Of a stretch of DNA of 46,051 nt, positions 2,865 through 38,443 are shown one piece after another (the first letter of the stretch is position 1; every line of letters starts with the position of its first letter). The stretch spans positions 1-46,051 of the forward strand of contig JAHFRV010000023.1 in NCBI GenBank assembly GCA_023266095.1, written 5' to 3'. Source of the DNA: Gammaproteobacteria bacterium. Its GTDB lineage: Bacteria > Pseudomonadota > Gammaproteobacteria > DRLM01. Position numbers and translations under genes: made by a program. A model generated the notes under the pieces. The model was given only the letters and a program-made list of their open reading frames with translations, ran no database searches and had not been told where the DNA came from.

Positions 2865-5800
2865 ATGTTTAACACTCCGAAGCTAAAGGGGTGGGCGTTA
2901 AGCGCCTGCCTGCTGGGACTTGTTGCAACCCCCCCGGCCTGGTCGGCGGACGTTATCCAGTTCGATGCGGATGGTCCCGCCCCCGCCAACGGGTCGATGC
3001 CCGTGGTGGCGTTTGACTGGATCCAGTCCAGTAATGTGATGACGGCGGCGCCCGGCTCAACGACACCGGCGTTTCCGCTGTTGCCGGGCCAGTCCAGGTC
3101 GGTACAGATGCTCAGCCATGGTGTGTTGAACGGGTTTGCGGATATCAATGGCAATCCGGCCGGCTCGCCGGCGGGGCTGAATACCAATTTTGAACTCACC
3201 TTTGTAGTGGGTTTCGGTGCGCGGGTGACCAATAATAATGGCACGTTGAGCTTCGGCCCCATCGACACCGACCCCAAATTCAAACAGTTCGTCGAGGTCT
3301 GGTATGACCAAGGGCCCTCGGTGAAGAGCGACGCGCTCAGCGGTTTGGGTTATGCGGGGGGCAGCACATTGATCTTGCGAGGCGAGGTCGTAGACATCAG
3401 TCAGAGCCCGCTGCCTATCAATGGCCCCCTGGTCACCTTTGACCAGTTTGGTGCCAATGACTTTCCTGGTGTGCAAACCCCGTATGGTACCGGCGGCATG
3501 CAGCTCACCGCGCGGGTGATCGAAGCCAACCCGGCTTTCTTCGTGAACAACTCGCTGCCGGTGGGATCGACCACCCTGTTCTTCAACCAATCGTTGCAGA
3601 ACTTGTTTGCGCAAACCAATCCCTCCAAGAGTTTTGTGCGCGGTTCGGTGACGGACGGCCATCCGACTTTTAACCCCGTGCTGGGCGCAATTAATGGTCA
3701 ATCCGGGCCCGACTTCCAGCAACAAGTGGACGCCAACAACAGCTTCACCGCGCCGCTGTGCACGGGCCAGATCGGCAACTTCGTTTGGAACGACCTCAAT
3801 AGCAACGGCCTACAAAACGTGGGCGAGCCGGGTTTCGACGGCGTGCAACTGGTATTGCGTAATGCTGTGACCAACGCCTTGATCGGGACCACCAACACCG
3901 CGGGCGGCGGCCAGTACCTGTTCAGCGGCCTGTGCGCAGGCAGCTACCAGGTGACGGTAACCGAAGCCACCCTGCCCGCCGGTTTCGTCCCCACCACCAG
4001 CTTCGCGGGTGACACCGACCTGGACAACAACGGCAGCCCCGCCACGGTCATCCTGCCCGCCAACAACACCCAAGACCTGAGTATCGACTTCGGCTACCGC
4101 CAACCGCCCGCCTCCTTGGGCGACCTCGTGTGGAATGACCTGAACCGCAACGGCATCCAAGACGGCAACGAGCAGGGCATCAATGGACTGACCGTGCAAT
4201 TGTTCGTATGTGGTGCGGATCCCAACGGCGCGCCGCTGGCAACGAAAGTCACCGCCAACGGCGGCCTCTACCTGTTCGACAACCTGGCCCCGGGCAGTTA
4301 CTTCGTGAAATTCGCTCTGGCCGCGGGTTATGTCTTCAGCCCGATGGATGCGGGTAACGACAGTCTCGACAGCGACGCCAACCTGGCCACCGGCGTGACG
4401 GACTGCGTGGATCTCTCCCCCGGCGAAACCGACCTCAGCGTGGACGCGGGCATGAACCGTCCGGCGGAGTCCAGCCTGGGCAACTACGTGTGGGAAGACA
4501 CCAACGCCAACGGTCTGCAGGACGACGGCAATACCGGTGTGCCCAATGTGACCGTCAACCTGTTCAACTGCGACGGCACCTCGGCGGGCAAACCCGCGGT
4601 GCTGACCGACGCCAACGGTTTCTATCAGTTCACGGGCTTGAGCGCGGGCCAATACTACGTGGTGTTCAACTTGAGCACCGCCGCCCCGGGCTTTGTGTTC
4701 ACCACCCAGAATGTCGCCGGCAACAGCAATGAAGCCACCGACAGCGACGCCAATCCCTTCACCGGGAAGTCGGAACCCTGTGTGACCCTGGGCATCAACG
4801 AAGCCAATAATGACGTCGACGCCGGCGTCTACCAATACGCCGAATTAGGTGACCGGGTATGGTTCGACACCAACCAAAACGGCCTGCAAGACGGCGGCGA
4901 GAATGGCATTGCCAATGTGGCGGTCAATCTGCTTGACTGCGATAACCAGACCGTGATGGATACTATGCTCACCAACGCTAGCGGCAACTATCTGTTCACT
5001 GATCTGGTGCCGGGTCGTTACATGGTGGAGTTCGTCAACCCCAACCCCGGTGTGCTGGTGTTCACTTCAAAAGACGTGGGTGCCGATGACGCCGTGGATA
5101 GCGATGCCGATGTCACCACCGGCCGCACCACCAGTGCCTGCATCAAATTGGAGTCCGGTCAGAGCGATTTGGCCTGGGACGCGGGTCTTTATGAGCCGCT
5201 GAAGCCGAAGATCGACATCGAGAAGTCGACCAATGACGTGGATGCGGACAATCCCAACGGCACTGGCATCCCGCAGATCGCGCCTGGCTCGAAAGTGACC
5301 TGGACCTATACCGTGAAGAACACGGGTAATACGGCCCTCTCCAACGTGACCGTCACCGATGACCAGCCGGGCGTGGTGGTGAGCTGTCCCAAGACCAGCC
5401 TGGCGGTGGGCGAGACCATGATCTGTACGGCGATAGGAATGGCGGTCAACCTGGCCACGGACACCACCTTTACCAAGGTGTCGGGTACCTGCGGCGGCGT
5501 GCCCAATTCCACTCTGTACGAAAATATGGGCAAGGCCACGGGCAAGACCTTCCTGGGCGACGTGGTGCAAGACACCGACCCCAGCCACTACTGTAACCCG
5601 CGCACCACCACGGGTGCGGGCACCGGCACCCCCGGTTATTGGAAGAACCATCCCAATGCCTGGCCGGTGAGCAGCATCACCATCGGTGGCGTGGTCTACA
5701 GTAAGGCGAATGCCATCCTCTGGATGGGCGCCAAAGACGGCGACAAGACCGTGACCATGTTCCGCTCCTTGGTGTCCGCCAAGCTGAACGTGTTGATCGG

Positions 5801-5978
5801 CGCGGAGAGCAGCTGTATCGCCTCCACCATCACCGCGGCCGACAGCTGGATGAAGACCTACGGCCCGGTAGGCAGTAAGGTCGATGCCAGCAGCCAGGCC
5901 TGGAAGATCGGCGAGCCGTTGTATAAGAAGCTGGATGACTACAACAACGGTCTGTTGTGCGCCCCCCACCGTGATTAA
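2865..5978 (+). CDS. Secreted multidomain protein: four SdrD-B-like repeats, DUF11-like domain, TPGYWKNH C-terminal domain
   Basis: A Sec signal peptide is clear (cleavage likely after AWSA, near residue 28). Residues 29-300 form a beta-rich N-terminal region of unknown family. Four repeats of the SdrD B-like/Cna-B type start near residues 303, 418, 536 and 660, each opening with G-x-x-VW-x-D-x-N-x-NG-(L/I)Q and carrying Asp/Asn-rich calcium-type loops. A DUF11-like domain follows (about 780-860; TWTYTVKNTGN). The C-terminal domain starts at TPGYWKNH, near 919, and is mostly helical. There is no PEP-CTERM tail, LPXTG motif, T9SS domain or autotransporter barrel, so it is probably released or held non-covalently at the surface. 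AAGGAG 8 bases upstream supports the start. A strong terminator follows, so it is monocistronic. Confidence 0.85.
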   Translation: MFNTPKLKGWALSACLLGLVATPPAWSADVIQFDADGPAPANGSMPVVAFDWIQSSNVMTAAPGSTTPAFPLLPGQSRSVQMLSHGVLNGFADINGNPAGSPAGLNTNFELTFVVGFGARVTNNNGTLSFGPIDTDPKFKQFVEVWYDQGPSVKSDALSGLGYAGGSTLILRGEVVDISQSPLPINGPLVTFDQFGANDFPGVQTPYGTGGMQLTARVIEANPAFFVNNSLPVGSTTLFFNQSLQNLFAQTNPSKSFVRGSVTDGHPTFNPVLGAINGQSGPDFQQQVDANNSFTAPLCTGQIGNFVWNDLNSNGLQNVGEPGFDGVQLVLRNAVTNALIGTTNTAGGGQYLFSGLCAGSYQVTVTEATLPAGFVPTTSFAGDTDLDNNGSPATVILPANNTQDLSIDFGYRQPPASLGDLVWNDLNRNGIQDGNEQGINGLTVQLFVCGADPNGAPLATKVTANGGLYLFDNLAPGSYFVKFALAAGYVFSPMDAGNDSLDSDANLATGVTDCVDLSPGETDLSVDAGMNRPAESSLGNYVWEDTNANGLQDDGNTGVPNVTVNLFNCDGTSAGKPAVLTDANGFYQFTGLSAGQYYVVFNLSTAAPGFVFTTQNVAGNSNEATDSDANPFTGKSEPCVTLGINEANNDVDAGVYQYAELGDRVWFDTNQNGLQDGGENGIANVAVNLLDCDNQTVMDTMLTNASGNYLFTDLVPGRYMVEFVNPNPGVLVFTSKDVGADDAVDSDADVTTGRTTSACIKLESGQSDLAWDAGLYEPLKPKIDIEKSTNDVDADNPNGTGIPQIAPGSKVTWTYTVKNTGNTALSNVTVTDDQPGVVVSCPKTSLAVGETMICTAIGMAVNLATDTTFTKVSGTCGGVPNSTLYENMGKATGKTFLGDVVQDTDPSHYCNPRTTTGAGTGTPGYWKNHPNAWPVSSITIGGVVYSKANAILWMGAKDGDKTVTMFRSLVSAKLNVLIGAESSCIASTITAADSWMKTYGPVGSKVDASSQAWKIGEPLYKKLDDYNNGLLCAPHRD

Positions 5979-6418: not shown

Positions 6419-7642
6419 ATGTCTGACGCACTGTTAGCGCTGCGTTCCCTGCTGCGTCAGCCACGTCGCACGGCCATCGCCTTGTTCGCCATCGGCTTCG
6501 GGGTAGTGGCTTTGCTGTTGGCCGGCGGATTCATGGAATGGATTTTCTGGGCGATGCGTGAATCCACTATTCAATCCCAGCTAGGCCATGTACAAGTCGT
6601 CCGGCCCGGTTACCTCAAGCAAGGGGCGGCCGATCCCTATCGTTTCTTCATGCCGGACGACGGCGTGCAACAAGGTTATCTGGAGGGTCTCGAACACGCG
6701 CAGGAAGTGGTGCCGCGGATCGGTTTCAGCGGTTTGATCAGTCATGGCGATGCCACCGTGTCCTTCATCGGTGAGGGAGTGGATCCGGCCCGGGAAGTCG
6801 CCTTGAGCCGCTATCTGGTGATAGTTGAAGGGGTAGCCCTCGCCGCGGGTGATGAAGGAGGTTTGCTGTTAGGCGAAGGCTTGGCCGCCAATTTAGGCGC
6901 CAAGCCCGGCGATACGGTGGTGCTGTTGTCCACCACTGCTTCGGGCGGTATCAATGCCGTCGAGGCTAAAGTGCGCGGCCTGTTTTTCACTTCCAATAAG
7001 GAATTCGACGATGTGGCCTTACGGCTGCCTTTGAGCCTGGCGCAGCGGTTATTGAAAACCCAAGGTGTGCATCGCTGGTTGGTGCTGCTCGACGATACCG
7101 CTTACACCGATACCGCGGTGGCGAAAATCAAAGCGCATTTCGCGGCGGAGGGCGAAGCGCTCGAGGTGGTGCCTTGGTATCGGCTCGCGGATTTTTACAA
7201 TAAGACCGTGGCCTTGTTCGGGCGGCAGCTGGGAGTGGTGGCCGGCATCATCGGTCTCATCATCGTCCTGAGTATTTCCAATACCCTGATCATGAGTGTG
7301 CTGGAGCGGACCCGCGAGATCGGCACGCTGCTGGCCTTAGGTCATCGGCGGCGGCAGGTGTTGGGTTTGTATGTGAGCGAGGGTTTGTGGCTGGGCATCA
7401 TCGGGGGCCTCGCGGGTGTAATAATCGGTGTGATGCTGGCACAGCTGATTTCCGCGGTGGGGATACCCATGCCGCCGCCGCCCGGCATGAAGCGCGGTTA
7501 CAGCGGTGAGATCATGCTGACCTGGTCGTTGATCGCGGGGACCTGGCTGTTGGCGGTGGTAAGCACGGTGCTGGCCAGTCTCTATCCGGCGTGGAAGGCC
7601 TCGCGGCTGGTCATCGTGGATGCCTTGCGTCATGGGCGCTGA
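6419..7642 (+). CDS. ABC transporter permease, MacB/LolC-E (FtsX) family, first paralogue
   Basis: The 407-residue protein has the MacB-type layout: an N-terminal membrane helix (about 19-40), a periplasmic MacB-core-like domain (about 45-265) and three C-terminal helices forming the FtsX domain (about 275-300, 325-350, 370-392). The cytoplasmic coupling segment VLERTREIGTLLALG is typical of the family. A MPPPPGM segment before the last helix is shared with the next gene. Such permeases use ATP to extract lipoproteins or other hydrophobic cargo from the inner membrane or to drive periplasmic efflux. The partner ATPase is probably the one at 9885-10559. A strong purine-rich ribosome binding site directly precedes the ATG. 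Confidence 0.88.
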   Translation: MSDALLALRSLLRQPRRTAIALFAIGFGVVALLLAGGFMEWIFWAMRESTIQSQLGHVQVVRPGYLKQGAADPYRFFMPDDGVQQGYLEGLEHAQEVVPRIGFSGLISHGDATVSFIGEGVDPAREVALSRYLVIVEGVALAAGDEGGLLLGEGLAANLGAKPGDTVVLLSTTASGGINAVEAKVRGLFFTSNKEFDDVALRLPLSLAQRLLKTQGVHRWLVLLDDTAYTDTAVAKIKAHFAAEGEALEVVPWYRLADFYNKTVALFGRQLGVVAGIIGLIIVLSISNTLIMSVLERTREIGTLLALGHRRRQVLGLYVSEGLWLGIIGGLAGVIIGVMLAQLISAVGIPMPPPPGMKRGYSGEIMLTWSLIAGTWLLAVVSTVLASLYPAWKASRLVIVDALRHGR

Positions 7643-7666
7643 CGGGTTTTTCGAAGAGTGGATGCC

Positions 7667-8878
7667 ATGCTGAACTTCGCCTTGCGTAATCTGTTCCGCC
7701 ACAAAGGCCGCACCGCGCTGAGTCTGGCGGCGGTGGTGTTCGGCGTGGTGAGCGTGATTCTCAGCGGCGGCTTCATCGAAGATGTGTTCTTTCAGTTGCG
7801 GGAGAACACCATTCATTCACGCTTGGGACATTTGCAGATCTACAGCGCCGGCTATTACGAATTCGGCCGCCGCGAACCGTTCGGACACATGATAGAGCAA
7901 CCCGCGCAACAGGCCGCGGTGCTGGAAAAACAGCCGCACGTGGCGGCGGTGCTGCAACGGCTGCAATTCTCCGGTTTATTGAACAATGGCCGGCGCGGCG
8001 AGGCGCCGGTATGGGCCGAGGGCGTGGAGCCGGATAAAGCAGCGCGGTTGGGCAGCGCGTTGGCCCTGGTCGCCGGCCGGGGTTTGCGGAACGACGATGC
8101 GTTCGGGGTGTTGATCGGCGAAGGCGTGGCGCGCGCGTTGCGCTTGCAACCCGGCGATAACACCACGTTGTTGGTTACTACGCCGGATGGCGCTTTCAAC
8201 ACCCTGGATTTCGAAGTCGTGGGTGTGTTCCGCACCATGTCGCAGGAGTACGACGCCCGCGCGGTGCGGGTGTCGTTGCCGGCGGCGCAGGACCTGCTCG
8301 GCATCGACACCGTGCACAGTCTGGTGCTGTTGCTGGACGATACCGAACACACCGATGCGGTGTTGGCCGCGTTGAAAACTCAGCTGCCGTCCGAGTTCGA
8401 GGTCAAGCCCTGGTATGAACTCGCCGAGTTTTATCAAAACGCGGTGGCCTTGTATCGCCGCCAATTCGCGGTGCTGCAGATCATCGTGGTGGTGTTGGTC
8501 TTATTGAGCGTGGCCAATAGCGTCAATATGGTGGTGCACGAACGTACCGGTGAATACGGCACTTTGCGCGCTTTGGGCGACCGGCGCGGCGATGTGTTTC
8601 GCCTGATCGTAACCGAGAATGCCTTGCTGGGTTTGGCCGGCGGCGTGGTGGGCGTCGTATTGGGCAGCGGTTTGGCGCTGGTGATTTCCAGCGTCGGTAT
8701 TGCCATGCCGCCGCCGCCCGGTATGAACGGCAGTTATCTCGCGGAGATCCGCGTGGTGCCGGCGGTGGTGGCCGCGGCCTTTGCACTGGGGGTGACGGCG
8801 ACGGTGATCGCGGCGCTGCGGCCCGCTTGGCGCGCGACGCGCACGACTATCAGCGAGGCTTTGCAGCAGAATATTTAG
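7667..8878 (+). CDS. ABC transporter permease, MacB/LolC-E (FtsX) family, second paralogue
   Basis: This 403-residue permease is a clear paralogue of its upstream neighbour, with the same one-plus-three helix plan, periplasmic domain and MPPPPGM segment. The coupling motif reads VVHERTGEYGTLRALG. I place the start at ATG 7667 rather than GTG 7658 because MLNFALRNLFRHKGR aligns with the beginning of the first permease and GAAGAG lies 8 bases upstream. The gap after the first permease is only 24 bases. Two different permeases plus one ATPase suggest a LolCDE-like heterodimer rather than a MacB homodimer. The cargo is unknown. Confidence 0.88.
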   Translation: MLNFALRNLFRHKGRTALSLAAVVFGVVSVILSGGFIEDVFFQLRENTIHSRLGHLQIYSAGYYEFGRREPFGHMIEQPAQQAAVLEKQPHVAAVLQRLQFSGLLNNGRRGEAPVWAEGVEPDKAARLGSALALVAGRGLRNDDAFGVLIGEGVARALRLQPGDNTTLLVTTPDGAFNTLDFEVVGVFRTMSQEYDARAVRVSLPAAQDLLGIDTVHSLVLLLDDTEHTDAVLAALKTQLPSEFEVKPWYELAEFYQNAVALYRRQFAVLQIIVVVLVLLSVANSVNMVVHERTGEYGTLRALGDRRGDVFRLIVTENALLGLAGGVVGVVLGSGLALVISSVGIAMPPPPGMNGSYLAEIRVVPAVVAAAFALGVTATVIAALRPAWRATRTTISEALQQNI

Positions 8879-8912
8879 GGGCAGCCCTGCTATCCATCGC
8901 GGAATCTTTCAA

Positions 8913-8939
8913 GAAAAATGAAATGCGATTTCATTTTTC
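8913..8939. terminator. AT-rich inverted repeat between convergent genes, likely bidirectional terminator
   Basis: Arms at 8913-8924 and 8928-8939 are perfect 12-base reverse complements around the loop GCG. Each arm carries a run of five A or T residues, so transcripts from either side end in a U-rich segment. It sits between the second permease (+) and the LolA-like gene (-). The stem is weak in GC, so termination strength is uncertain. Confidence 0.55.
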
Positions 8940-9006
8940 ATCCGCCAGTTACCCAGGATGGCGCAAATCTCCGCTAAAATACGCGGCACCACCAACCGCC
9001 CAAAGC

Positions 9007-9807
9007 TCATTGCAACTTTTTGAGATAATCTTTGGTGAACATTTTGTCCGGCAGTTCCTTGAGCGCCATGTCGCTGTAGTCCAGCGTGGATTTATTGCCC
9101 TGGTTCAAATTGTCGATCATTACCAGCCGGGTCGGCCGTTGTTCACCTTGCATCAGGGCGAAGTTTTGATAGAAGCAGGTCTTCATCAGCCGGTTGGAAC
9201 GGGTATAAAACTCGGCTTTATAAGGCCGGTTATCGGCTTGGTTGACCCAATACAACACGCGATCATAGGTTACACCGCGATCGACCGCGCTGAGTTCCAG
9301 CACCCAATACCAGGCACCATCGATGGTTTCCTTGCGCAGAATTTTCGGTTGGTAATCACCGGCGAAGTTGGCCCGCGCCAGATCACCGTTGGCCACTTGG
9401 CCGGTGAGCCGTTGCGCCAGCGGCAGGCGGATGGGTTGTGAGACGCTGGGCATGAAGGCCCACAGGTCACGACCCTTGAGCAGCAGGATATGACCGCGTT
9501 CAGTGGGCGGTTCGGTGGTCATCACCAAGGTGTCTTCGTTGCCCTTGGACAGGATGCGGTACTTGCGCAATTCGGATGTACCGTCCGCGTCGGTGTTGTT
9601 GATGGTGACATCCACTTGAAAGCTGGCGGCCGGAAAGCGGATGCGGTCGGTCCGCTCGACGATTTGTCGGGGGTCTTCGTTGCCGTTATCAGCAAGTAAG
9701 GGTGGCGCGATCAACAGGGCGCTACTCGCCGCGACCCAGAGGAGTAATGAAGTGATTAATCGTTTGGTGGCGGTGGTGGTGGGCCTGGTCAATTTCCCTG
9801 AAGTCAT
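9007..9807 (-). CDS. LolA-like outer-membrane lipoprotein-sorting family protein
   Basis: The 266-residue product starts with a long signal sequence (hydrophobic core about 17-37, likely cut after LLA). The mature part matches the uncharacterised LolA-like family usually annotated as outer membrane lipoprotein-sorting protein: an opening helix (DPRQIVERTDRIRFP), then beta strands including KGRDLWAFMPSVSQPIRLP and a late DYSDMALKELPDKMF. Members have the open LolA/LolB barrel that shields acyl chains, and they often sit beside RND or ABC exporters and DUF1302 barrels. GGAGG precedes the ATG. It is transcribed opposite to the permeases and divergent from the ATPase, with only about 77 bases between starts, so a shared promoter region is likely. 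It is probably the periplasmic carrier of this island. Confidence 0.8.
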   Translation of the reverse strand: MTSGKLTRPTTTATKRLITSLLLWVAASSALLIAPPLLADNGNEDPRQIVERTDRIRFPAASFQVDVTINNTDADGTSELRKYRILSKGNEDTLVMTTEPPTERGHILLLKGRDLWAFMPSVSQPIRLPLAQRLTGQVANGDLARANFAGDYQPKILRKETIDGAWYWVLELSAVDRGVTYDRVLYWVNQADNRPYKAEFYTRSNRLMKTCFYQNFALMQGEQRPTRLVMIDNLNQGNKSTLDYSDMALKELPDKMFTKDYLKKLQ

Positions 9808-9884
9808 ACTGGGGTGCCTCCATTGTGCTGGTTTTCGCTGTCATGGCCATTCATAATGCGGGCGTGCTGCACGGAATGGTCGCT

Positions 9885-10559
9885 ATGAACGTTGTGCGTG
9901 TCGAAAACCTTCATAAAGAATATCAGTTGGGTCAGCAACAAGTGCAGGCCCTCAAAAATATCAGTTTAACCGTGCGTGCCGGCGAATTCCTCGCCATCGC
10001 CGGTCCGTCCGGCAGCGGCAAGTCCACGCTCCTGAATATTATCGGCTGCATCGATACACCCAGTAGCGGTCGCTTATGGATCGATGATGAGGACGTCAGC
10101 GGCCGCGGCCCCGACCAATTGGCCGACCTGCGTGCCCGCAGTATCGGGTTTATCTTCCAGACCTTCAATCTGCTGCCGGTCCTGTCGGCGACGGAGAACG
10201 TGGAATACCCTCTGCGTCACTTCAAAGAACTGGACAAGGCCGCGCGCCGCGGGCGGGTGGCCCATTATCTGGAGGTGGTCGGGCTGGCTGCTTACGCCCA
10301 CCACCGACCCAATCAACTGAGCGGCGGCCAGCGCCAGCGGGTGGCCATCGCCCGGGCCTTGGCGACCCAGCCGCGCATGGTCCTCGCCGACGAACCGACC
10401 GCCAATCTCGACCACAAAACCGGTGAAGGCATACTGGCTTTGATGAAAGAGATCAACCGTGGCGCCGGCACCACCTTCATTTTTTCCACTCACGATCCCA
10501 AAGTGATTGCCTTGGCTGACCGGGTCGTGGAGATCAGCGATGGTGAACTGCTTGCTTAG
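9885..10559 (+). CDS. ABC transporter ATP-binding protein, LolD/MacB type
   Basis: All nucleotide-binding motifs are intact in 224 residues: Walker A GPSGSGKST (40-48), Q-loop in FQTFN (about 91-95), signature LSGGQRQR, Walker B VLADEP and the switch His in STHDP. The sequence is of the LolD/MacB/FtsE class that energises FtsX-type permeases. The frame is open further upstream (to 9825), but I place the start at ATG 9885, where the family's usual N-terminus (VVRVENLHKEY) begins; ATG 9876 is the alternative. It is followed 10 bases later by the SPOR-barrel gene. It most likely powers the two permeases at 6419-8878. Confidence 0.9.
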   Translation: MNVVRVENLHKEYQLGQQQVQALKNISLTVRAGEFLAIAGPSGSGKSTLLNIIGCIDTPSSGRLWIDDEDVSGRGPDQLADLRARSIGFIFQTFNLLPVLSATENVEYPLRHFKELDKAARRGRVAHYLEVVGLAAYAHHRPNQLSGGQRQRVAIARALATQPRMVLADEPTANLDHKTGEGILALMKEINRGAGTTFIFSTHDPKVIALADRVVEISDGELLA

Positions 10560-10569
10560 CGATCGACTC

Positions 10570-12315
10570 ATGATGATGAGATGGGCGGTAGCGGTGCTGT
10601 TGTGGGCCGCGGTGTGTTCCGCGCGCGCCGATTATGTGGTGCAGGTCGGTGTGTTCGAAAAGCCGCGTTATGCCGGTGATATCGCCCGTACCCTGCATCT
10701 GGGCGGGTTGACGGTGAAAGCCCAGCCCATCATCGATGTGCCCGGCGGCTTGATAATCCGGCTCATGGTCGGACCTTATGCCACCCGCCGTGAGGCGGAG
10801 GACGCCCTGGTCCGCGTCAAGGCCCTGGGTCAGGAAGGTTTCATACGCAAGTATGTCGAGGGACCGGAGGTGAAACGGCCGAGTCCGCGGCCGGGCCCTG
10901 CCCCGGTGCCCAAGGAAACCACGACCGTGCCGCCGCCCCCCGCGCCGGCCAAGGAACCGCTCATCGTTCTGGACCGGTTGAATATCGAGCCGCCGCCCCC
11001 GTCGGAGTTGACCGAGGAACAGATACAGGAACTGCTGGCTTTGGCTCCGCCCGAGATTCCCGTGCCGGCGGAAGATTTATTCGGCTTAGGCGAATTGCCG
11101 ACGGCGCCGCCGTCGCGCATCACCGGTTTCTTCCAAAGCGAATTGGCTTATGCGTGGCGGGAGCCGGCGCATTTGTCGAAGTTTCGGCATACCTTGGAAC
11201 TGTCCACCCAAGGGGAGTGGGGCGGGTGGGCGAAGTGGAAGTTGAGCGGCCGCGCCGCCTATGACGCCGTGTTTGATGTCGATGATTATTATCCGGCCGC
11301 CGTGGATGACGACCAGAGTTTGCAGGCCAGCGTGCGCGAGACTTACTTGGACTTCAGTCTCGGCGCTTGGGATTTCCGTCTCGGTCGCCAGCATATCATT
11401 TGGGGTGAAATGGTCGGTTTGTTCTTCGCCGACGTGGTGTCGGCCAAGGATCTGCGGGAATTCGTCTTGCCGGAATTCGAGATGTTGCGCATTCCCCAAT
11501 GGGCGCTGCGCAGCGAATATTTCAGCGGCGACTTTCACGGCGAGGCGGTGTGGATTCCCTATCCCAGTTACGACGACATCGGCGTGCCGGGCGCGGAGTT
11601 TTATCCTTATCCTGCCCCGCCGGCCGGTTACGGCCTCGCTTTCCGTGACGAGGAAAAACCGGCGGGGGAGTTGCGCCACTCCGGCTACGGTCTGCGGCTG
11701 TCGTATATCCAATCCGGCTGGGATTTGTCCGGATTTTATTACAGCAGTATGGATGCTTCCGCGGCGTTTTTCCGCGACGTGATTGCTACGCCCGTACCAA
11801 CGGTGATCTACCGGCCCACCCACGAGCGTATTCAGCAATACGGCGCCACCTTGTCCAAAGATTTTTTAAGTATGGTGTTCAAGGCCGAGGTGATTTATAC
11901 CCAAGACCGCTGGTTTGAAGTGACTCGGCTGCGTGACGTCGACGGCGCGGTGCAACAGGATGCCTTGGATTACGTGGTGGGCTTGGAATATCCCCTGCCG
12001 GCCCGTTCGCGGCTCAATCTGCAATTTTTCCAGCGCTGGTATCCCGATCACGATCCGGATATGACGGCGAAAGCAGTGGAGTCCGGCGCGAGCGTGTATC
12101 TCAGCACCCATTGGCGTTCGCTGGAGCCGCAGTTGTTGCTGGTGGGGAGTTCGAACCGCGGTGATTGGCTGGCGCGGCCTAAGATCGTGTGGGAGCTGGG
12201 TCGGCAGTGGCGCTGGGTGAACGGTGTCGATGTGTTCGGCGGTAACCGCAGCGGTTTGTTCGGCCGTTACGGCAATCTCGACCGGGTGTATAGCGAGCTA
12301 CGCTATACCTTTTAA
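10570..12315 (+). CDS. SPOR domain fused to a DUF1302-like outer-membrane beta-barrel
   Basis: The 581-residue protein has a signal peptide (1-20, cut after SARA), then a SPOR-type domain (about 21-95: DYVVQVGVFEKP ... VGPYATRREAEDAL). A proline-rich linker follows (about 97-185) and then a barrel region to the C-terminus. The barrel has hallmarks of the DUF1302 family, such as FRLGRQHIIWGE and a C-terminal strand ending in aromatic residues (YTF). SPOR domains bind denuded peptidoglycan glycan strands. Joined to a barrel, the domain would tether an outer-membrane protein to the wall or to division sites. The frame is open back into the ATPase gene; I chose the ATG cluster at 10570 because it gives an immediate signal peptide and a 10-base gap. 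Barrel assignment is by pattern, and the fusion is directly visible. Confidence 0.78.
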   Translation: MMMRWAVAVLLWAAVCSARADYVVQVGVFEKPRYAGDIARTLHLGGLTVKAQPIIDVPGGLIIRLMVGPYATRREAEDALVRVKALGQEGFIRKYVEGPEVKRPSPRPGPAPVPKETTTVPPPPAPAKEPLIVLDRLNIEPPPPSELTEEQIQELLALAPPEIPVPAEDLFGLGELPTAPPSRITGFFQSELAYAWREPAHLSKFRHTLELSTQGEWGGWAKWKLSGRAAYDAVFDVDDYYPAAVDDDQSLQASVRETYLDFSLGAWDFRLGRQHIIWGEMVGLFFADVVSAKDLREFVLPEFEMLRIPQWALRSEYFSGDFHGEAVWIPYPSYDDIGVPGAEFYPYPAPPAGYGLAFRDEEKPAGELRHSGYGLRLSYIQSGWDLSGFYYSSMDASAAFFRDVIATPVPTVIYRPTHERIQQYGATLSKDFLSMVFKAEVIYTQDRWFEVTRLRDVDGAVQQDALDYVVGLEYPLPARSRLNLQFFQRWYPDHDPDMTAKAVESGASVYLSTHWRSLEPQLLLVGSSNRGDWLARPKIVWELGRQWRWVNGVDVFGGNRSGLFGRYGNLDRVYSELRYTF

Positions 12316-12367: not shown

Positions 12368-14356
12368 TTATGACTTATCGATCATCAGCTCTTCCAGCGA
12401 TTTGCGGGTGGAGCGGGCGGTCGGCGCGGGGCCGGCGCCGATGCGCCCCATGAAGACCGCGCGCTGACTCAATTCCGCGCCCAATATCTTTTCCAATTGT
12501 CCGCTCACCCGCTGCGCGCGCGCCCAGCCTTGGTCGCTCGTGGTGAAGCGCAGGCCTTTTTTCACATAGTCGGCGAAAATCAGCGGCGTCATTTCCGGCT
12601 GCACATGCAGGCCCTGCTGGCTGGCGGTGAGCCAGAAGCGTTGCACGGCGCGGCCGGCCGCGACGTAATCGTCGATGCTGCCGGGCGGTTGCGGGGCGAT
12701 GATGACGAAATGGGCGGCGCAGCGCAACGCGGGGATGATGTCCAGCTGCAGGCGCGGCATCAGCGTACCGGCGAGATAGCGGTTGAGGAAGGTCACCCGC
12801 TCCCATTTTTGCAGCGTCCATTCCATGAGACGGGTGGTGAGCGGATCGAGGCCGACGGCTTGGTCGGGAATGCGGTCACGGCTGAATTGACTGTGCCATT
12901 CGATCACCCGGCGGTGGACCTCGAAGGCTTCGGGGATGGTGAGACGGATGGCGGCGTTGGCGGAGGTCAACCGCGCCATGGCCAGTTTCTTTTGGGTGTG
13001 GTCCAGCCACACGACGTGAAAATGGGGTTTTACCGCGGTTTGCAGCGCCGCCCGTTCATGGCGGGTCAGCGGGCGGGTGCTGAGCGCGCGCCGTTGAGTG
13101 CTGCGGACCCGGATATACGGCAACAGCGGATCGGTGCTCACCGGCAGGTCGGCGCCGAGTGTTACGTCGAAAGTGGGATGGGTGTCCGGCGTATCGGGTC
13201 GCCGGCTGATATTGACGCTCAGCTCCTCGCCGCTGGCGGCGATGGTGAGGGTCTCCAGCAAAGCGCCCAGCGCGATGTGACTGGCATGACCTTCCAAGTC
13301 GTATACCACGTGGTCGCGGGTGTCGAAGCCATGAATGACGACGTGGCGCGGATCACGGATTTCGAAACGCCACGGTTGGGTGTTGTCGCCGCTGGGTGCC
13401 CAGCGCGCCAGGTTCAAAATGCGTTCCGTGGCGCTGAGGCGGGGCGCGGACGGCGGCGCGGATGGGGCACGGTCGGCGGCTCCGAATTGTTTACGCGCGA
13501 TGTACAGGGCGATGCGTTGCAGGGGATGGCGATTGCCGCCGGGGCGCCAGGTTTTGACCAGGCGGTTGCGATAGGCGTCGAAGTGCAGACCATGTGGCGC
13601 GGCTAGAATCTTGCCGCGATGCAGCAACAACTTCAGCGCCTGGGTGGCGGCCACGCCGGCGCACAGCTCGCAAGCCATGGGGGTCGATGGGCCGCGATGG
13701 CGGGCGAGGTCCACGCTGCTGGGGTCCACTAAATAACCGCGTTGCAGCATGGCCGGTGAGAGGCCCAGCAAAAAGCGCAGCAGTTGTTCATCTTCCGGTT
13801 GGCCCGCCAGGCCGAAATACTCATCGAAACTCATCCCCCCCGGCTGAAAAATGAGCAGTGCGACGCCCATCCCCAGCGGAGCGGCGGTGACCGCCGGAAT
13901 GCCGGCCTCCGCGCAGGCCGCGAATACCGTGCGGCGGATGTCCATCGCGAAGAAATCCAGACCGTCCACGTAAAGGTCCACCCCATCGAGAAAGGCTGGC
14001 AGGTTGGCGGTGTTCACGCCGTCGGGAAAGATACGCAGATCGAGTTCAGGATTGATGTCACGCGCCAGTCGCGCGAGCACGTCGGCTTTGGGTTGTTGCA
14101 AGGTGGAGCAGGCCGCGCCCGCTTGGCGATTGAAATTGGCCAACTCGAAGTGGTCGAAATCGGCGATGTGAAACGCGCCCACACCCAGGCGGGTAAGGGT
14201 CAGTAAATGGCTCCCGCCCACCCCACCCATGCCGGCGATGGCGATGCGTTTGTGGCGTAGAATGATTTGTTCGTCCCGCGTGACCCAGCCGGTGTTGCGG
14301 GAAAACGCGAGGCCATAGTCAAAGTCGGCGCGCATGGGATGAGTTTCTCGAGGCAA
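12368..14356 (-). CDS. ThiF/E1-like adenylyltransferase fused to a nitroreductase-family domain
   Basis: The 662-residue protein has two parts. Residues about 25-290 are a ThiF/MoeB/HesA-like E1 domain with nucleotide-binding loop GMGGVGGSH (42-50), the family's NFNRQ (74-78), Asp-rich YVDGLDFF and one CxxC (C229, C232); the second CxxC usual for zinc in MoeB-type enzymes is not seen. Residues about 305-650 are a nitroreductase-like FMN domain opening with ARWAPSGDNTQPWRF; the later GRAVQRFWLTASQQGL resembles Acg-type nitroreductases. E1 domains adenylate a carboxyl terminus or small acid, and nitroreductase domains perform FMN-dependent redox chemistry. The gene is divergent from the exosortase-associated acyltransferase, suggesting a shared pathway. 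A start at the internal ATG (14335) is possible. Substrate unknown. Confidence 0.82.
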   Translation of the reverse strand: MPRETHPMRADFDYGLAFSRNTGWVTRDEQIILRHKRIAIAGMGGVGGSHLLTLTRLGVGAFHIADFDHFELANFNRQAGAACSTLQQPKADVLARLARDINPELDLRIFPDGVNTANLPAFLDGVDLYVDGLDFFAMDIRRTVFAACAEAGIPAVTAAPLGMGVALLIFQPGGMSFDEYFGLAGQPEDEQLLRFLLGLSPAMLQRGYLVDPSSVDLARHRGPSTPMACELCAGVAATQALKLLLHRGKILAAPHGLHFDAYRNRLVKTWRPGGNRHPLQRIALYIARKQFGAADRAPSAPPSAPRLSATERILNLARWAPSGDNTQPWRFEIRDPRHVVIHGFDTRDHVVYDLEGHASHIALGALLETLTIAASGEELSVNISRRPDTPDTHPTFDVTLGADLPVSTDPLLPYIRVRSTQRRALSTRPLTRHERAALQTAVKPHFHVVWLDHTQKKLAMARLTSANAAIRLTIPEAFEVHRRVIEWHSQFSRDRIPDQAVGLDPLTTRLMEWTLQKWERVTFLNRYLAGTLMPRLQLDIIPALRCAAHFVIIAPQPPGSIDDYVAAGRAVQRFWLTASQQGLHVQPEMTPLIFADYVKKGLRFTTSDQGWARAQRVSGQLEKILGAELSQRAVFMGRIGAGPAPTARSTRKSLEELMIDKS

Positions 14357-14576
14357 GGTCGGCGCCTCCCTGGCGTTGTACTATCCTAGTGTCACACTGT
14401 AACGGCTGTGGTCCGGCTCGCTCAAGGGAATGTGAAGCCGATCACGATCCTACAGCTGATTCGATGAATAAAGTGTGAACGAGGTCGCGGATACGGATTG
14501 TTTAACCATGCACTATACAGCCTTGAGTGTAAATAGATTCCAGCCATCGTGATGGCTCAGAAAAGAGGCAACGGTT
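14357..14576. promoter_or_regulatory. Divergent promoter region between ThiF-nitroreductase and acyltransferase genes
   Basis: These 220 bases separate two divergent genes, so they should hold both promoters. An 11-base palindrome, AGTGTCACACT, lies at 14388-14398, and a related half-site (AGTGTGA) recurs near 14470. I see no convincing -35/-10 pair. The operator suggestion is inference from the palindrome alone. Confidence 0.35.
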
Positions 14577-15380
14577 ATGGACGCATTGGCGGACAACTTC
14601 GCGCGGTTTTTCGATGTTAAACCCGTGGTCACCGACGAAGAGTTGCGGTTGGCCATGCAATTGCGTTACCAGGTGTATTGTCTTGAAACCGGTTTTGAAG
14701 ACATCAACCAGCATCCCGGTGGAATGGAGCGCGACGAATTCGACAGCCGCGCTGTACATAGTTTGCTGATCCATCGCGCCAGTGGGATGGTGGCTGGCAC
14801 GGTGCGCCTGGTGCTGCCCGAGGCGGCTAACCCGCAAGCGCTGTTTCCCATCGAAAAACATTGTGGCAATCAGGTGCGGAGGCCGGTGGCTTCCGCCTTG
14901 CGTGGTCAGCTCGCGGAGATTTCGCGTTTCTGCATCTCCAAGGAATTCAAACGACGCATGGCCGAGTCGCCTTCCTTATGGGGCAGTATTGAAGGCATGA
15001 CCGAAGATATGAGCCAGCGTCGCTTGATCCCCCACATTACCGTCGGGCTCTTCACCGCCATTGTGCGCATGAGTGCGCAGCACGGGATTCGCTATTGGTA
15101 TGCGGTGATGGAGCCGTCGCTGTTGCGTCTGCTGACACGTTTCGGCATCCACTTTTCTCTCATCGGTCCCGCCGTGGAGTATCACGGTGCGCGGCAACCT
15201 TGTTTTGCCGATGCCGATGCGGTATTGACGGAGATGTACCGAGTCGTTCCCACGGTATGGGACTTGATCACCGAAGGGGGGCACCTCTGGCCGGCGGGAA
15301 GTACCCAGTATCGGGAAATAAATCCCGAGCTTGATGGTTGGTCGTTGCGACGTGATGGGTATGTCTTCGCCAGAGGATGA
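14577..15380 (+). CDS. PEP-CTERM/exosortase-associated acyltransferase (autoinducer-synthase fold)
   Basis: The 267-residue product matches the exosortase-associated acyltransferase family (TIGR03694, from memory), a GNAT-fold relative of LuxI-type acyl-homoserine-lactone synthases and N-acyl amino acid synthases. Visible hallmarks are LRYQVYCLETGFE (about 22-35), ERDEFDSRAVHSLL, GTVRLVLP and LAEISRFCISKEF. Family members occur almost only in genomes with an exosortase, but their product is not established. An acyl group from acyl-ACP or acyl-CoA is presumably joined to an amine. The gene lies just before the XrtA locus but is separated from it by a strong terminator, so it is a separate transcription unit. 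Confidence 0.87.
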   Translation: MDALADNFARFFDVKPVVTDEELRLAMQLRYQVYCLETGFEDINQHPGGMERDEFDSRAVHSLLIHRASGMVAGTVRLVLPEAANPQALFPIEKHCGNQVRRPVASALRGQLAEISRFCISKEFKRRMAESPSLWGSIEGMTEDMSQRRLIPHITVGLFTAIVRMSAQHGIRYWYAVMEPSLLRLLTRFGIHFSLIGPAVEYHGARQPCFADADAVLTEMYRVVPTVWDLITEGGHLWPAGSTQYREINPELDGWSLRRDGYVFARG

Positions 15381-15502: not shown

Positions 15503-15548
15503 ACGTCACGGCTGCCGGCTTGCGGGCAGCCGTGACGTAAAGTTTTTT
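15503..15548 (+). terminator. Strong rho-independent terminator isolating the EPS locus
   Basis: A 14-base perfect stem (15503-15516 with 15525-15538) around an 8-base loop is followed by a run of six Ts (15543-15548). It ends the acyltransferase transcript and insulates the XrtA operon promoter 35 bases further on. Confidence 0.88.
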
Positions 15549-26382: not shown

Positions 26383-27954
26383 ATGAGCGGACCCTTACAG
26401 CCCAGCGTGGATAGCGCGGTGTTACCGCCCGGTGAGCAACTGCCCGTCTGGCGTTCGCCGCTGGTGCTGGCCGGCGTGCTGGTGGTGGCGGTGCTGGCGC
26501 TGTATTGGCAGACGGTGTTGTCGATGGCGGCGATCTGGTCGCGTTCCGAAACGTTTACCCACGGTTATTTGATCGCGCCGATCAGCCTGTTCCTGATTTG
26601 GCAGCGGCGCAAGGCACTGGCCGCGATGACGGCGGTGCCGGATCCGTGGGGTTTGCCGGTGTTGTTCCTGATCGGTGTGGTGTGGCTGCTGGCCCATTAC
26701 GCCAGTGTCATGGTCATCGAACAGCTGGCGATGGTGGCCATGGTGGCGACGGTGGTGTGGACGGTGCTCGGGCGGCGCATGGTCTGGGCGATGATATTTC
26801 CCTTGGCCTTTTTGTTCTTCGCCGTGCCGCTCGGCGAGGAATTGATCCTGCCCTTGATGGATTTCACCGCTGATTTCACCGTGGCCGCCTTGCAGTTGAC
26901 CGGCATTCCGGTTTATCGCGAAGGGACTTTTTTCGAGATCCCCAGCGGCCACTGGTCGGTGGTCGAAGGCTGTAGCGGGGTGCGCTATCTCATCGCCTCG
27001 GTGACCTTGGGTTGTTTGTATGCCTATCTCACCTACCGCAGCCCGCTGCGACGGACCGTGTTCGTGGTGTTGTCGGTCCTGGTGCCCATCATCGCCAATG
27101 GCCTGCGCGCCTATATGATCGTGATGATCGCCCATTTGAGCGATATGAAGCTGGCGCTGGGCGTCGATCACTTCATCTACGGCTGGGTGTTCTTCGGTCT
27201 GGTGATGCTGTTGCTGTTCTGGGCGGGTTCGTTTTGGCGCGAGGACCATTTTGAGCCGGCCAGTCCGCCGCTGGCCGCCGCGAATGGGGTTTCCGCGGCG
27301 GGCCGTCGCTCGCCGCTGCCGGTGGCGGGAGTGGTGCTTGCTTTGCTGGCGGCGTGGCCGGCGCTGAGTTATGTGAATGCGGCGCGCCAGGATACGGTGG
27401 CCAACCTCAGTTTGGTGGTGCCGCCGTCCACCGCTGGTTGGCAGGCCGGCGAGCCCATGAGTGAATGGCAGCCCCGCTATTTGGGCACCGATGCGTCCGT
27501 GCAACAGAGTTACGCGCGCGAGGGCCATCGCGCGCTGGTGTATCTGGCCTATTACCGCCATCAGCGTCAAGGCGCGGAGTTGATTAATTCGCAGAACGTG
27601 CTGGTCAAGCAGAAAGACCCGGTGTGGCGGCAGGTGGCGGAGGGGCCGCGGGAAATCACCGTCAATGGCAAGCGCATTCAGGTGCGCGAGGGCAAGCTGC
27701 GATCCGAGACGCAGGATTTGCTGGTGTGGCATTGGTATTGGATGGACGGTGTCTACACCACCAATCATTATCTGGCTAAATTCTGGGAGTCCAAGGCCAA
27801 ACTATTCGGTGAGACCGGCGACGCGGCGGCGATCATCGTCGCCGCCGAGATCGGTGAGCGAGGACCGGATGCCGCCGCCGCGGTGCTGAACGACTTCGTG
27901 ACGGGCATGGAGCCGGCGATCCGCGCCAGCCTGGAGAATGTCGCCCATGAGTGA
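26383..27954 (+). CDS. xrtA: Exosortase A with C-terminal EpsI domain
   Basis: The 523-residue protein has eight or so membrane helices in residues 25-285, then a periplasmic EpsI domain (about 300-520). The transpeptidase-like catalytic triad is visible: Cys197 in EGCSGVRY, Arg242 in NGLRAYM and His263 in VDHFIYGW. Exosortases cleave the C-terminal PEP-CTERM signal of exported proteins and are thought to transfer them to another molecule. No PEP-CTERM substrate is encoded in this window. AAAGAGG upstream supports the start. The preceding 103-base gap may contain a weak promoter (TAGAAT at 26339-26344). It overlaps the next gene by 8 bases. Confidence 0.95.
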   Translation: MSGPLQPSVDSAVLPPGEQLPVWRSPLVLAGVLVVAVLALYWQTVLSMAAIWSRSETFTHGYLIAPISLFLIWQRRKALAAMTAVPDPWGLPVLFLIGVVWLLAHYASVMVIEQLAMVAMVATVVWTVLGRRMVWAMIFPLAFLFFAVPLGEELILPLMDFTADFTVAALQLTGIPVYREGTFFEIPSGHWSVVEGCSGVRYLIASVTLGCLYAYLTYRSPLRRTVFVVLSVLVPIIANGLRAYMIVMIAHLSDMKLALGVDHFIYGWVFFGLVMLLLFWAGSFWREDHFEPASPPLAAANGVSAAGRRSPLPVAGVVLALLAAWPALSYVNAARQDTVANLSLVVPPSTAGWQAGEPMSEWQPRYLGTDASVQQSYAREGHRALVYLAYYRHQRQGAELINSQNVLVKQKDPVWRQVAEGPREITVNGKRIQVREGKLRSETQDLLVWHWYWMDGVYTTNHYLAKFWESKAKLFGETGDAAAIIVAAEIGERGPDAAAAVLNDFVTGMEPAIRASLENVAHE

Positions 27955-36434: not shown

Positions 36435-38303
36435 TCAGTCCAGGCGTGACGGAATGCCGTCTACATGGTGTTGCAGCCATTGCTCCAGCATGACCATCAC
36501 CCAAATCATCACGCCGTAATAATTGGCGTGGTCGCGGCGCCCTTGGTCGAGCAGAATGTCTAGATAACGGGGATTGATATAGTGCCGCTTGCGCAGGCTT
36601 TGTAGGCTGTCGCCGACCAACTCGCGCAGTGGTGCATGCTGGTTCAGCCACAGACCGAAAGGCAGGCCAAAACCATGTTTGGATTTTTTGATGATCTCTG
36701 GCGGCAGAAAATCTTTGAGGCTGTCCTTGAAAAAATAACGCAGGTGATAACCTTTTATCATCAGGTCGTCGGGTATCCTGCCGGAAAATTCCACCATCGC
36801 GTCGTCGAGCAACGGGTAAGCCACAGCCACGCCGGCCATCTCGCAGGCGCGGTTCACTTTGCGCAGGTCATTGTCGGCCAGCGTGGTTTTCAGGTCGAGG
36901 TGCAGCATGCGATGCAATGCGGCATTACCTTGGGTCCGCTGATAGACCTCGCGCAGGTTTTCCATGGGTTCGGCGAGATCGAGCTGCTTTAAAAATGCCT
37001 CCTGCAAGATTTCCTGCAAGGGAGTGCGATGCAGAAAGTTGTAGCTTTCCAAGCGATCGGGCAACGGCACCTTGGCCTGGCTGATATAACTTTGCAGCTT
37101 GCGCAGCGGCGGCAGATGTTGCGCGCCGGGAAAACCAAACGCCAGCGGTTCGATCACGGCTTGGCGCAGCGCCGCCGGCAAAGTGTGATAGAGATCAAAG
37201 GTCTTTTGTTTCACGTAGCGGACGTTGCCGCCGAATAGCTCGTCGCCGCCGTCGCCGGCGATCATCAGATCGACGCCGTCTGCCTTGGCCATTTTCGCGC
37301 AGTAATAGCTGGGCACCGCCGAGGCATTGCCGAACGGCTCATCATAGGCACGGGCGATGAGCGGAATGGCGTCCACCACGTCCTGCGGCGTCACATAATA
37401 AGTGTGATGACGGGTGCCGAAATGTTTGACGGCGATGTCGGCGTAATGCGATTCGTCATAACCTTCGGCCGCGAAGCCAATCGAATAGGTGTCGGCGTGC
37501 GTGCCGGTCACTTCGGTGACGATGCCCGCCAACGTGGAGCTGTCGGTGCCGCCGCTTAAAAAATTGCCCAGTTTGGCGTGGGGCTGGGCCAAGGCCCGCC
37601 GTGCGGTTTGCCGTAGCAGGCCGCGAAATTCCTCGGCGAGTTCACGTTGCGACTCGCCGCTGTCGTCTTGATAACGCATCCGCCAATAAAAATGTTTTGA
37701 CCAGCAGCCGTTGGCGAACAGCAGGTATTGGCCGGGCAAAAGTTTTTCCACGTTTTGGTAAATGGTGCGCGGACTGGGGATCATATGAAAATACAAATAG
37801 TCGTAGACCGATTGGGGATCAATCTGGCGGGCGACCGCCGGGTGGGCAGTGACGCTGTCGGTGGTGGCGCCAAACACGACGCCGCTGTCGCTGGGTGCGA
37901 AACACAGCGGGCGGATACCCAGCCGGTCGACGGCCAGCAGCGCCCGCTGGGCGGCGAGATCGAAAATCGCCACGCTGAACGCACCGCGCAGCTCAGTGAG
38001 GCAAGCGGGACCTAACCGACGATAACTTTCCGCCAGGGCCGCCGCCGTGCCCTGTCGGCCGGCGATGTCCTGTAATGCGGCCGTATTAAAGTAGGCCGCC
38101 CCCTGGCACGCTATCCATAGGGTTTCGTTTTGATAAAGTGTACCGCCCTCGCCGCGGGGAGCGGCTATCGCCAAGGCACAGTCCGCGGCGGTCCGACAGA
38201 TACTCTCCCCGGTTAACGACGTATGAAGTGTTCGGGCCATGGCCGCGATCCGCTCGGCCGGAGATGCCGTGGGACTGGCGAACCAGCCGCATATGCCGCT
38301 CAT
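36435..38303 (-). CDS. Asparagine-synthase family protein lacking the N-terminal Cys nucleophile
   Basis: The 622-residue protein is AsnB-like throughout, but it begins MSGICGWF: residue 2 is Ser where class II glutaminases need Cys, and the only nearby Cys is residue 5. The glutamine-site motifs of normal members (RGPD, RLSIID, NGEIYN) are also missing; the last reads QGAAYFN. The synthetase domain is well kept, with FLSGGTDSSTL and IAGDGGDELFGG. It may therefore use free ammonia or another amine, or serve as an ATP-dependent ligase. ATG 38303 is preferred to 38309 because an AGG lies at the right distance; with either start Cys is not residue 2. It is the only minus-strand gene after 15.4 kb. 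Confidence 0.85.
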   Translation of the reverse strand: MSGICGWFASPTASPAERIAAMARTLHTSLTGESICRTAADCALAIAAPRGEGGTLYQNETLWIACQGAAYFNTAALQDIAGRQGTAAALAESYRRLGPACLTELRGAFSVAIFDLAAQRALLAVDRLGIRPLCFAPSDSGVVFGATTDSVTAHPAVARQIDPQSVYDYLYFHMIPSPRTIYQNVEKLLPGQYLLFANGCWSKHFYWRMRYQDDSGESQRELAEEFRGLLRQTARRALAQPHAKLGNFLSGGTDSSTLAGIVTEVTGTHADTYSIGFAAEGYDESHYADIAVKHFGTRHHTYYVTPQDVVDAIPLIARAYDEPFGNASAVPSYYCAKMAKADGVDLMIAGDGGDELFGGNVRYVKQKTFDLYHTLPAALRQAVIEPLAFGFPGAQHLPPLRKLQSYISQAKVPLPDRLESYNFLHRTPLQEILQEAFLKQLDLAEPMENLREVYQRTQGNAALHRMLHLDLKTTLADNDLRKVNRACEMAGVAVAYPLLDDAMVEFSGRIPDDLMIKGYHLRYFFKDSLKDFLPPEIIKKSKHGFGLPFGLWLNQHAPLRELVGDSLQSLRKRHYINPRYLDILLDQGRRDHANYYGVMIWVMVMLEQWLQHHVDGIPSRLD

Positions 38304-38443
38304 AATCATTTACCTGTTGCGTAAGATTGCACACCTGTGTGCCGGCTGGCTCGGACAGGGATGGCTAGTATAACGGATTAAGCAGGGCGGAGCCTTAATA
38401 AATGCCCTATAATGAGCTGGTTATAACATGATGAGATTAAGTT
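38304..38443. promoter_or_regulatory. Divergent promoter region with a consensus -10 for the sulfotransferase
   Basis: This 140-base region separates divergent genes. TATAAT at 38408-38413 is a consensus -10 oriented toward the sulfotransferase, but the corresponding -35 position (about 38385) is GC-rich and unlike TTGACA. It would give a leader of about 25 bases. The promoter for the minus-strand gene is not obvious. Confidence 0.4.

Follow-up and report, generated by a model that had tools for sequence, protein, structure and literature searches.

The described systems closest to the locus considered here build acyl-oxazolones from amino acids. In OxzAB of Pseudoalteromonas rubra, as outlined in later accounts, OxzA carries out the N-acylation, and the ThiF-nitroreductase fusion OxzB closes the ring and introduces the double bond (PMC12856293, PMC10404671); TyzACB and TrzAS of Mycobacterium tuberculosis perform the same steps on tyrosine and tryptophan, respectively (PMC10404671, PMC12856293), with TrzS carrying out ATP-dependent cyclisation before O2-dependent desaturation (PMC12856293). 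TIGR03694-type enzymes were tied to long-chain N-acyl amino acids and to exosortases by Craig et al. 2011, as that work is cited in PMC8776678 and PMC4897644. Here we describe a pair of divergent genes, encoding a ThiF-nitroreductase fusion protein and a TIGR03694 acyltransferase, on a 46,051-nucleotide stretch of gammaproteobacterial DNA (contig JAHFRV010000023.1 of assembly GCA_023266095.1, lineage DRLM01; hereafter the window). Sequence, predicted structure and neighbourhood place the pair in the OxzAB/TrzAS class of acyl-oxazolone pathways with a probability of about 0.82, an estimate that covers the enzyme pathway only and takes its chemistry from homologs. An initial annotation of this DNA had proposed one small-molecule pathway leading to an acylated, oxidised product, which appears right in outline by analogy with characterised homologs. 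It had also supposed the pathway to be possibly undescribed; this part falls, because the combination is that of the characterised oxazolone synthetases OxzB, TrzS and the split TyzB/TyzC (PMC12856293, PMC10404671), and the interpretation as a whole is partly supported. The kind of pathway has been known since 2021 and the link between acyltransferase and exosortase since 2011. What seems new is the XrtA exosortase and exopolysaccharide (EPS) context of the oxazolone-type pair, as no open paper that we found describes an exosortase-oxazolone link, the primary papers (de Rond 2021, Craig 2011) lying outside that search.

The union of E1-like and nitroreductase-type domains in one polypeptide, as first annotated, is borne out by the open reading frame, by all the motifs quoted for it (GMGGVGGSH at residues 42-50, NFNRQ at 74-78, CxxC at 229-232 and APSGDNTQPW at 320-329), by Pfam matches (ThiF, 1e-36, residues 21-274; Nitroreductase, 2e-8, from residue 310) and by the predicted folds. 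Homologs in relatives are conserved over the full length at 47-90% identity, so that the fusion is neither an artefact of assembly nor a product of chance. The translation start is uncertain, the annotated TTG at 14356 having a GGAGG 8 bases upstream and several homologs starting near the ATG at 14335. In a structural model derived from 36 homologs (mean predicted local distance difference test score, pLDDT, 89), residues 11-277 match E. coli ThiF/MoeB (Z ~26, 229-236 residues aligned), with MccB, PaaA and AclA as further structural neighbours of this domain. Alignment with MoeB pairs D66, R77, K90 and D134 of the fusion with MoeB D62, R73, K86 and D130, which we take to be the adenylation-site residues; R77, K90 and D134 are invariant in the family alignment of 36 homologs, D66 is conserved in at least 90%, and the G42-G48 loop is present, so that the ATP-site residues are retained across the family and not lost. 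Residues 307-662 match the Acg flavoprotein 2YMV (Z 29.8, 295 residues, 2.7 A), Acg being also the template that the authors of the TrzS study used for TrzS (PMC12856293). In this flavin domain APSGDNTQPW is conserved, and neither R471 nor Q586 varies across 15 sequences, one of them a homolog of 22% identity; the spacing of the two residues fits that of their putative TrzS counterparts, R540/Q651. Among NCBIfam models, the Rv1355c (TrzS) family NF005901 is one of the best relatives of the fusion (1.7e-56); the protein passes the cut-off of PRK08223 (452.6 vs 266) and falls far under those of PRK14851 and PRK14852. In a tree from which OxzB and TrzS are absent, it groups with the homolog from Pseudoalteromonas luteoviolacea (a 16-taxon clade, support 0.95), apart from the MoeB and TcdA proteins of its own genome.

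The divergent gene scores 258.8 bits against TIGR03694 (cut-off 111.95) and also matches PF00765, in agreement with the initial annotation of an exosortase-associated acyltransferase sharing a 220-base divergent region with the fusion gene. Its model (pLDDT 85) finds its closest folds in TofI, LasI, RpaI, BjaI and FeeM, with Z values ranging from 16.7 for FeeM to 18.7 for TofI. Its likeness to LuxI-type acyl-homoserine-lactone (AHL) signal synthases is confined to this fold and the PF00765 match. The glutamate E114 is invariant across 35 homologs, and the corresponding residue of Nas354 proved essential (PMC4897644). Within 14357-14576 no match to a sigma-70-type consensus was detected. A shared sigma-54 promoter was considered as a regulatory link and rejected, with 25 matches in the window against 27 expected and none in the divergent region. 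Several loci (L040, at 8245-9051 and 9231-9992; L050; L079; L081; L084) contain two adjacent and quite different TIGR03694-like acyltransferases, the second of which may act on another substrate; a second TIGR03694 copy is also present in the genome of the window, on another contig (G000:C26:24047-24706).

No other single finding argues as strongly as a natural triple fusion that the three activities belong to one pathway and that this pathway goes with exosortases. A plasmid protein of Nitratidesulfovibrio vulgaris (L119:5065-7989, 974 aa) joins FeeM, ThiF and nitroreductase domains in one chain, corresponds to the NCBIfam 'hypothetical protein' PRK14852, and has as its neighbours an XrtA-system glycosyltransferase, a tetratricopeptide repeat (TPR) protein and three PEP-CTERM proteins. 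The plasmid search otherwise returned mostly unrelated short ThiF matches, Bdellovibrio and Rhodococcus being the further exceptions. Among 80 named loci, 56 have the fused and 24 the split form, and a TIGR03694- or FeeM-type acyltransferase lies <4 kb away in 59 of the 80 (in 45 of the 59 loci with sufficiently long flanks). The P. luteoviolacea fusion, 48% identical to that of the window, likewise stands beside an acyltransferase that passes TIGR03694. The arrangement of the pair varies among these loci from divergent to same-strand operon to overlapping, and such variable gene order argues that the linkage is functional rather than merely inherited.

By analogy with the characterised systems, the TIGR03694 enzyme would acylate the amino group of an amino acid, which we guess to be probably aromatic, with a fatty acyl group taken from acyl carrier protein (ACP) or coenzyme A (CoA). 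The ThiF domain would then adenylate the carboxylate with ATP, attack by the amide oxygen closing a 5(4H)-oxazolone ring, and the flavin mononucleotide (FMN) domain would drive desaturation of the alpha-beta bond with O2. Two further steps stand outside the probability given above: an adjacent MacB/LolA/beta-barrel module probably carries the product towards the outer membrane, and the product may function alongside the XrtA exosortase/EPS system.

Association with exosortases was scored in an even draw of 274 gammaproteobacterial species (the class sample), where carriers were defined by a homolog of the fusion or of the split ThiF partner at E <= 1e-40, and TIGR03694 and XrtA were counted above their cut-offs; 26 genomes carried the fusion or split form, 33 TIGR03694 and 51 XrtA. 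The co-occurrence of the enzyme with the acyltransferase is well beyond chance: TIGR03694 is present in 20 of the 26 carriers (Fisher p 8e-17; p 8e-13 with families as units), always on the same contig, at a distance of <1 kb in 12, <3 kb in 15 and <11 kb in 19 of the 20 genomes with both. XrtA is found in 24 of the 26 carriers vs 27 of 248 non-carriers (p 3e-18; p 2e-11 by family), and a ThiF-nitroreductase gene is present in 18/21 TIGR03694 genomes that are XrtA-positive vs 2/12 that are XrtA-negative. The enzyme and XrtA occur together in 17 of the 19 gammaproteobacterial families carrying the enzyme, plus one sulfate reducer. Among the carriers are culturable strains of Janthinobacterium, Massilia, Nitrosospira, Ectothiorhodospira and Rheinheimera, as well as the sludge lineages Zoogloea and Accumulibacter; a sample of Alphaproteobacteria gave a homolog in 2 of 142 genomes, too few for a co-occurrence test. 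Of 50 named carriers that form a further set, 41 have XrtA above cut-off; because an exosortase-linked query was used to collect them, this proportion is biased towards exosortases, the class sample being less biased. In the window itself the pair borders a complete XrtA exosortase/EPS cluster, comprising a Wza-like export protein, chain-length protein, kinase, ATPase, deacetylase, FemAB, glycosyltransferases, XrtA, amidotransferase and O-ligase, and 15 matches to PEP-CTERM sorting signals score above cut-off in the genome.

On its other side the fusion gene adjoins the MacB/LolA/beta-barrel module, for which we infer a role as candidate exporter of the product, lipoprotein sorting being an alternative role. 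Close homologs of its barrel and LolA-like proteins (E below ~1e-70) occur in an identical set of 9 of the 274 genomes. Each of the nine carries XrtA together with the fusion or the acyltransferase, and these homologs are present in none of the 24 XrtA genomes that have neither enzyme (p 0.002 within XrtA genomes). In named gamma- and betaproteobacterial loci the module is kept beside or around the fusion, the enzymes lying between the barrel and ATPase genes in L085 and L113, and on the Bdellovibrio plasmid a ThiF gene lies near LolA-like, ATP-binding cassette (ABC) and FtsX/MacB genes. Two genomes of the class sample, G003 and G095, have XrtA, TIGR03694 and the LolA/barrel module, with no ThiF-nitroreductase gene found, which suggests that N-acyl amino acids may be a further cargo of the module.

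A different account would accept the oxazolone pair as real and regard XrtA and the MacB/LolA module as bystanders, gathered in a shared surface-biogenesis island with no functional coupling. It draws on the 9 of the 50 named carriers without an XrtA above cut-off, four of them, including P. luteoviolacea, with no hit at all, and on the acyltransferase gene having its own terminator-like repeat ahead of the EPS operon (with unusually long arms, in an inverted-repeat scan that overall was not above chance). The XrtA association that persists with families as units, its presence in most named carriers, and the confinement of the module to genomes with XrtA plus one of the two enzymes make such a coincidence doubtful, if far from negligible. 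We tentatively propose instead, at somewhat less than even odds, that acyl-oxazolones are a general, so far unrecognised small-molecule product of XrtA/EPS systems, in which the TIGR03694 enzyme would feed the synthetase, the MacB/LolA/SPOR-barrel module would be a dedicated exporter, and the product would act at the outer membrane as a signal or anchor serving EPS and PEP-CTERM display. The purpose of the oxazolones is described as a major open question (PMC12856293), and the papers on oxazolones and acyltransferases likewise leave the rationale of the exosortase acyltransferase without an answer. Their co-occurrence merges the two puzzles into one: do EPS assembly and PEP-CTERM display at an XrtA locus involve the synthesis and export of an acyl-oxazolone, and do they require it? 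The 'hypothetical' families PRK14851, PRK14852 and PRK08223 could, by the same token, receive a likely function.

Several observations weigh against assignment to an oxazolone pathway. We know of no characterised product for any member from an XrtA locus. The fusion scores 191.8 bits against NF005901, below the equivalog cut-off of 476, and hence is a relative of the TrzS subfamily and not a member of it; the pairing of R471 and Q586 with R540/Q651 of TrzS is likewise putative, the OxzB and TrzS sequences lying outside the alignment. Some of the 80 named loci have no recognisable acyltransferase nearby. Finally, open-chain N-acyl dehydrotyrosines are made by organisms that carry similar genes, with the same three activities, and in which no oxazolone was seen (PMC12479983). 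This last point underlies the main rival on the product, namely that the pathway ends in an open-chain N-acyl dehydro-amino acid, like thalassotalic or kyonggic acid, after hydrolysis of a transient oxazolone. Acid hydrolyses oxazolones and alcohols open the ring during extraction (PMC12856293), which is compatible with that reading. The oxazolone is, in turn, the product in the reconstituted OxzAB, TyzACB and TrzAS systems, and we recognised no gene for a dedicated hydrolase in the window; we consider the open-chain end product unlikely.

It is very improbable that the substrate activated by the ThiF domain is a peptide or protein, in ubiquitin-like or azole chemistry of ribosomally synthesised and post-translationally modified peptides (RiPPs), as its E1 fold and the structural neighbours named above might suggest, given that the conserved partner is an acyltransferase, fused to it in Nitratidesulfovibrio, and that the genome's own MoeB- and TcdA-like E1 proteins are encoded on separate contigs. 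The initial hint of azole-forming peptide chemistry fails because the whole 96%-complete genome has no YcaO and the characterised enzymes act on a free N-acyl amino acid. A housekeeping E1 role was also set aside for the fusion, the MoeB- and TcdA-like proteins lying elsewhere.

Features of the gene pair and of its surroundings, with window coordinates
Feature	Position	Strand	Remarks
ThiF + nitroreductase-fold flavin oxidase (FDO) fusion, predicted OxzB/TrzS-type oxazolone synthetase	12368-14356	-	662 aa
ThiF/E1-like domain, predicted ATP-dependent cyclase, residues ~10-290	13487-14329	-	MoeB alignment, conservation, fold
FMN nitroreductase-fold domain, predicted FDO-A-like desaturase, residues 307-662	12371-13438	-	Pfam, predicted structure, conservation
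Divergent intergenic/promoter region	14357-14576		220 bases between annotated starts
TIGR03694 N-acyl amino acid synthase (predicted), OxzA/FeeM/LuxI fold, putative catalytic Glu E114	14577-15380	+	267 codons
Terminator-like inverted repeat between acyltransferase and EPS operon	15503-15538		17-nt arms, then T run
XrtA/PEP-CTERM exopolysaccharide cluster	15684-36411	+	family-profile matches
XrtA exosortase	26383-27954	+	358 bits; same cluster, 11 kb from acyltransferase
MacB/LolC-E-like ABC permease	6419-7642	+	conserved neighbour
Second MacB/LolC-E-like ABC permease	7658-8878	+	
LolA-like periplasmic lipid/lipoprotein carrier (PF17131)	9007-9807	-	
ABC transporter ATPase of candidate exporter	9825-10559	+	
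SPOR-domain + DUF1302-like outer-membrane beta-barrel	10507-12315	+	adjoins fusion gene

Two further genes flank these features. A second asparagine-synthase-like amidotransferase follows the EPS cluster at 36435-38309 (-), scoring 322 bits vs the cut-off of 817 of the XrtA-system amidotransferase family, and a likely surface protein of 1037 aa with SdrD_B-like repeats (four matched stretches) is encoded upstream of the transporter module, at 2865-5978 (+).

Set beside the known systems, the window pair resembles OxzAB in placing an N-acyltransferase beside a ThiF-nitroreductase didomain protein, but OxzAB forms one operon where the window genes are divergent, and the window pair stands in an XrtA EPS locus, whereas P. 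luteoviolacea gives no XrtA hit. With mycobacterial TrzAS (Rv1356c/Rv1355c) it shares the order of ThiF and FDO domains and an adjacent acyltransferase (PMC12856293), although the relationship is distant and the short-chain tryptophan specificity of that system is not transferable. TyzACB of M. tuberculosis has the three activities as well, with tyzA divergent from tyzCB, an arrangement shared with the window pair (PMC10404671); there, however, ThiF and FDO are separate proteins, and the neighbour is mmpL9 rather than a MacB/LolA module. PRK14852 combines FeeM, ThiF and nitroreductase in a single chain, and its model, like those of PRK14851 and PRK08223, bears no functional name. The synthases of Craig, Cherry and Brady 2011 are likewise TIGR03694 enzymes, of which the window has a member in an XrtA locus; judged by its title and later citations, that work ends at N-acyl amino acids, whereas here a ThiF-nitroreductase step accompanies the acyltransferase in 18 of the 21 genomes with both XrtA and TIGR03694.

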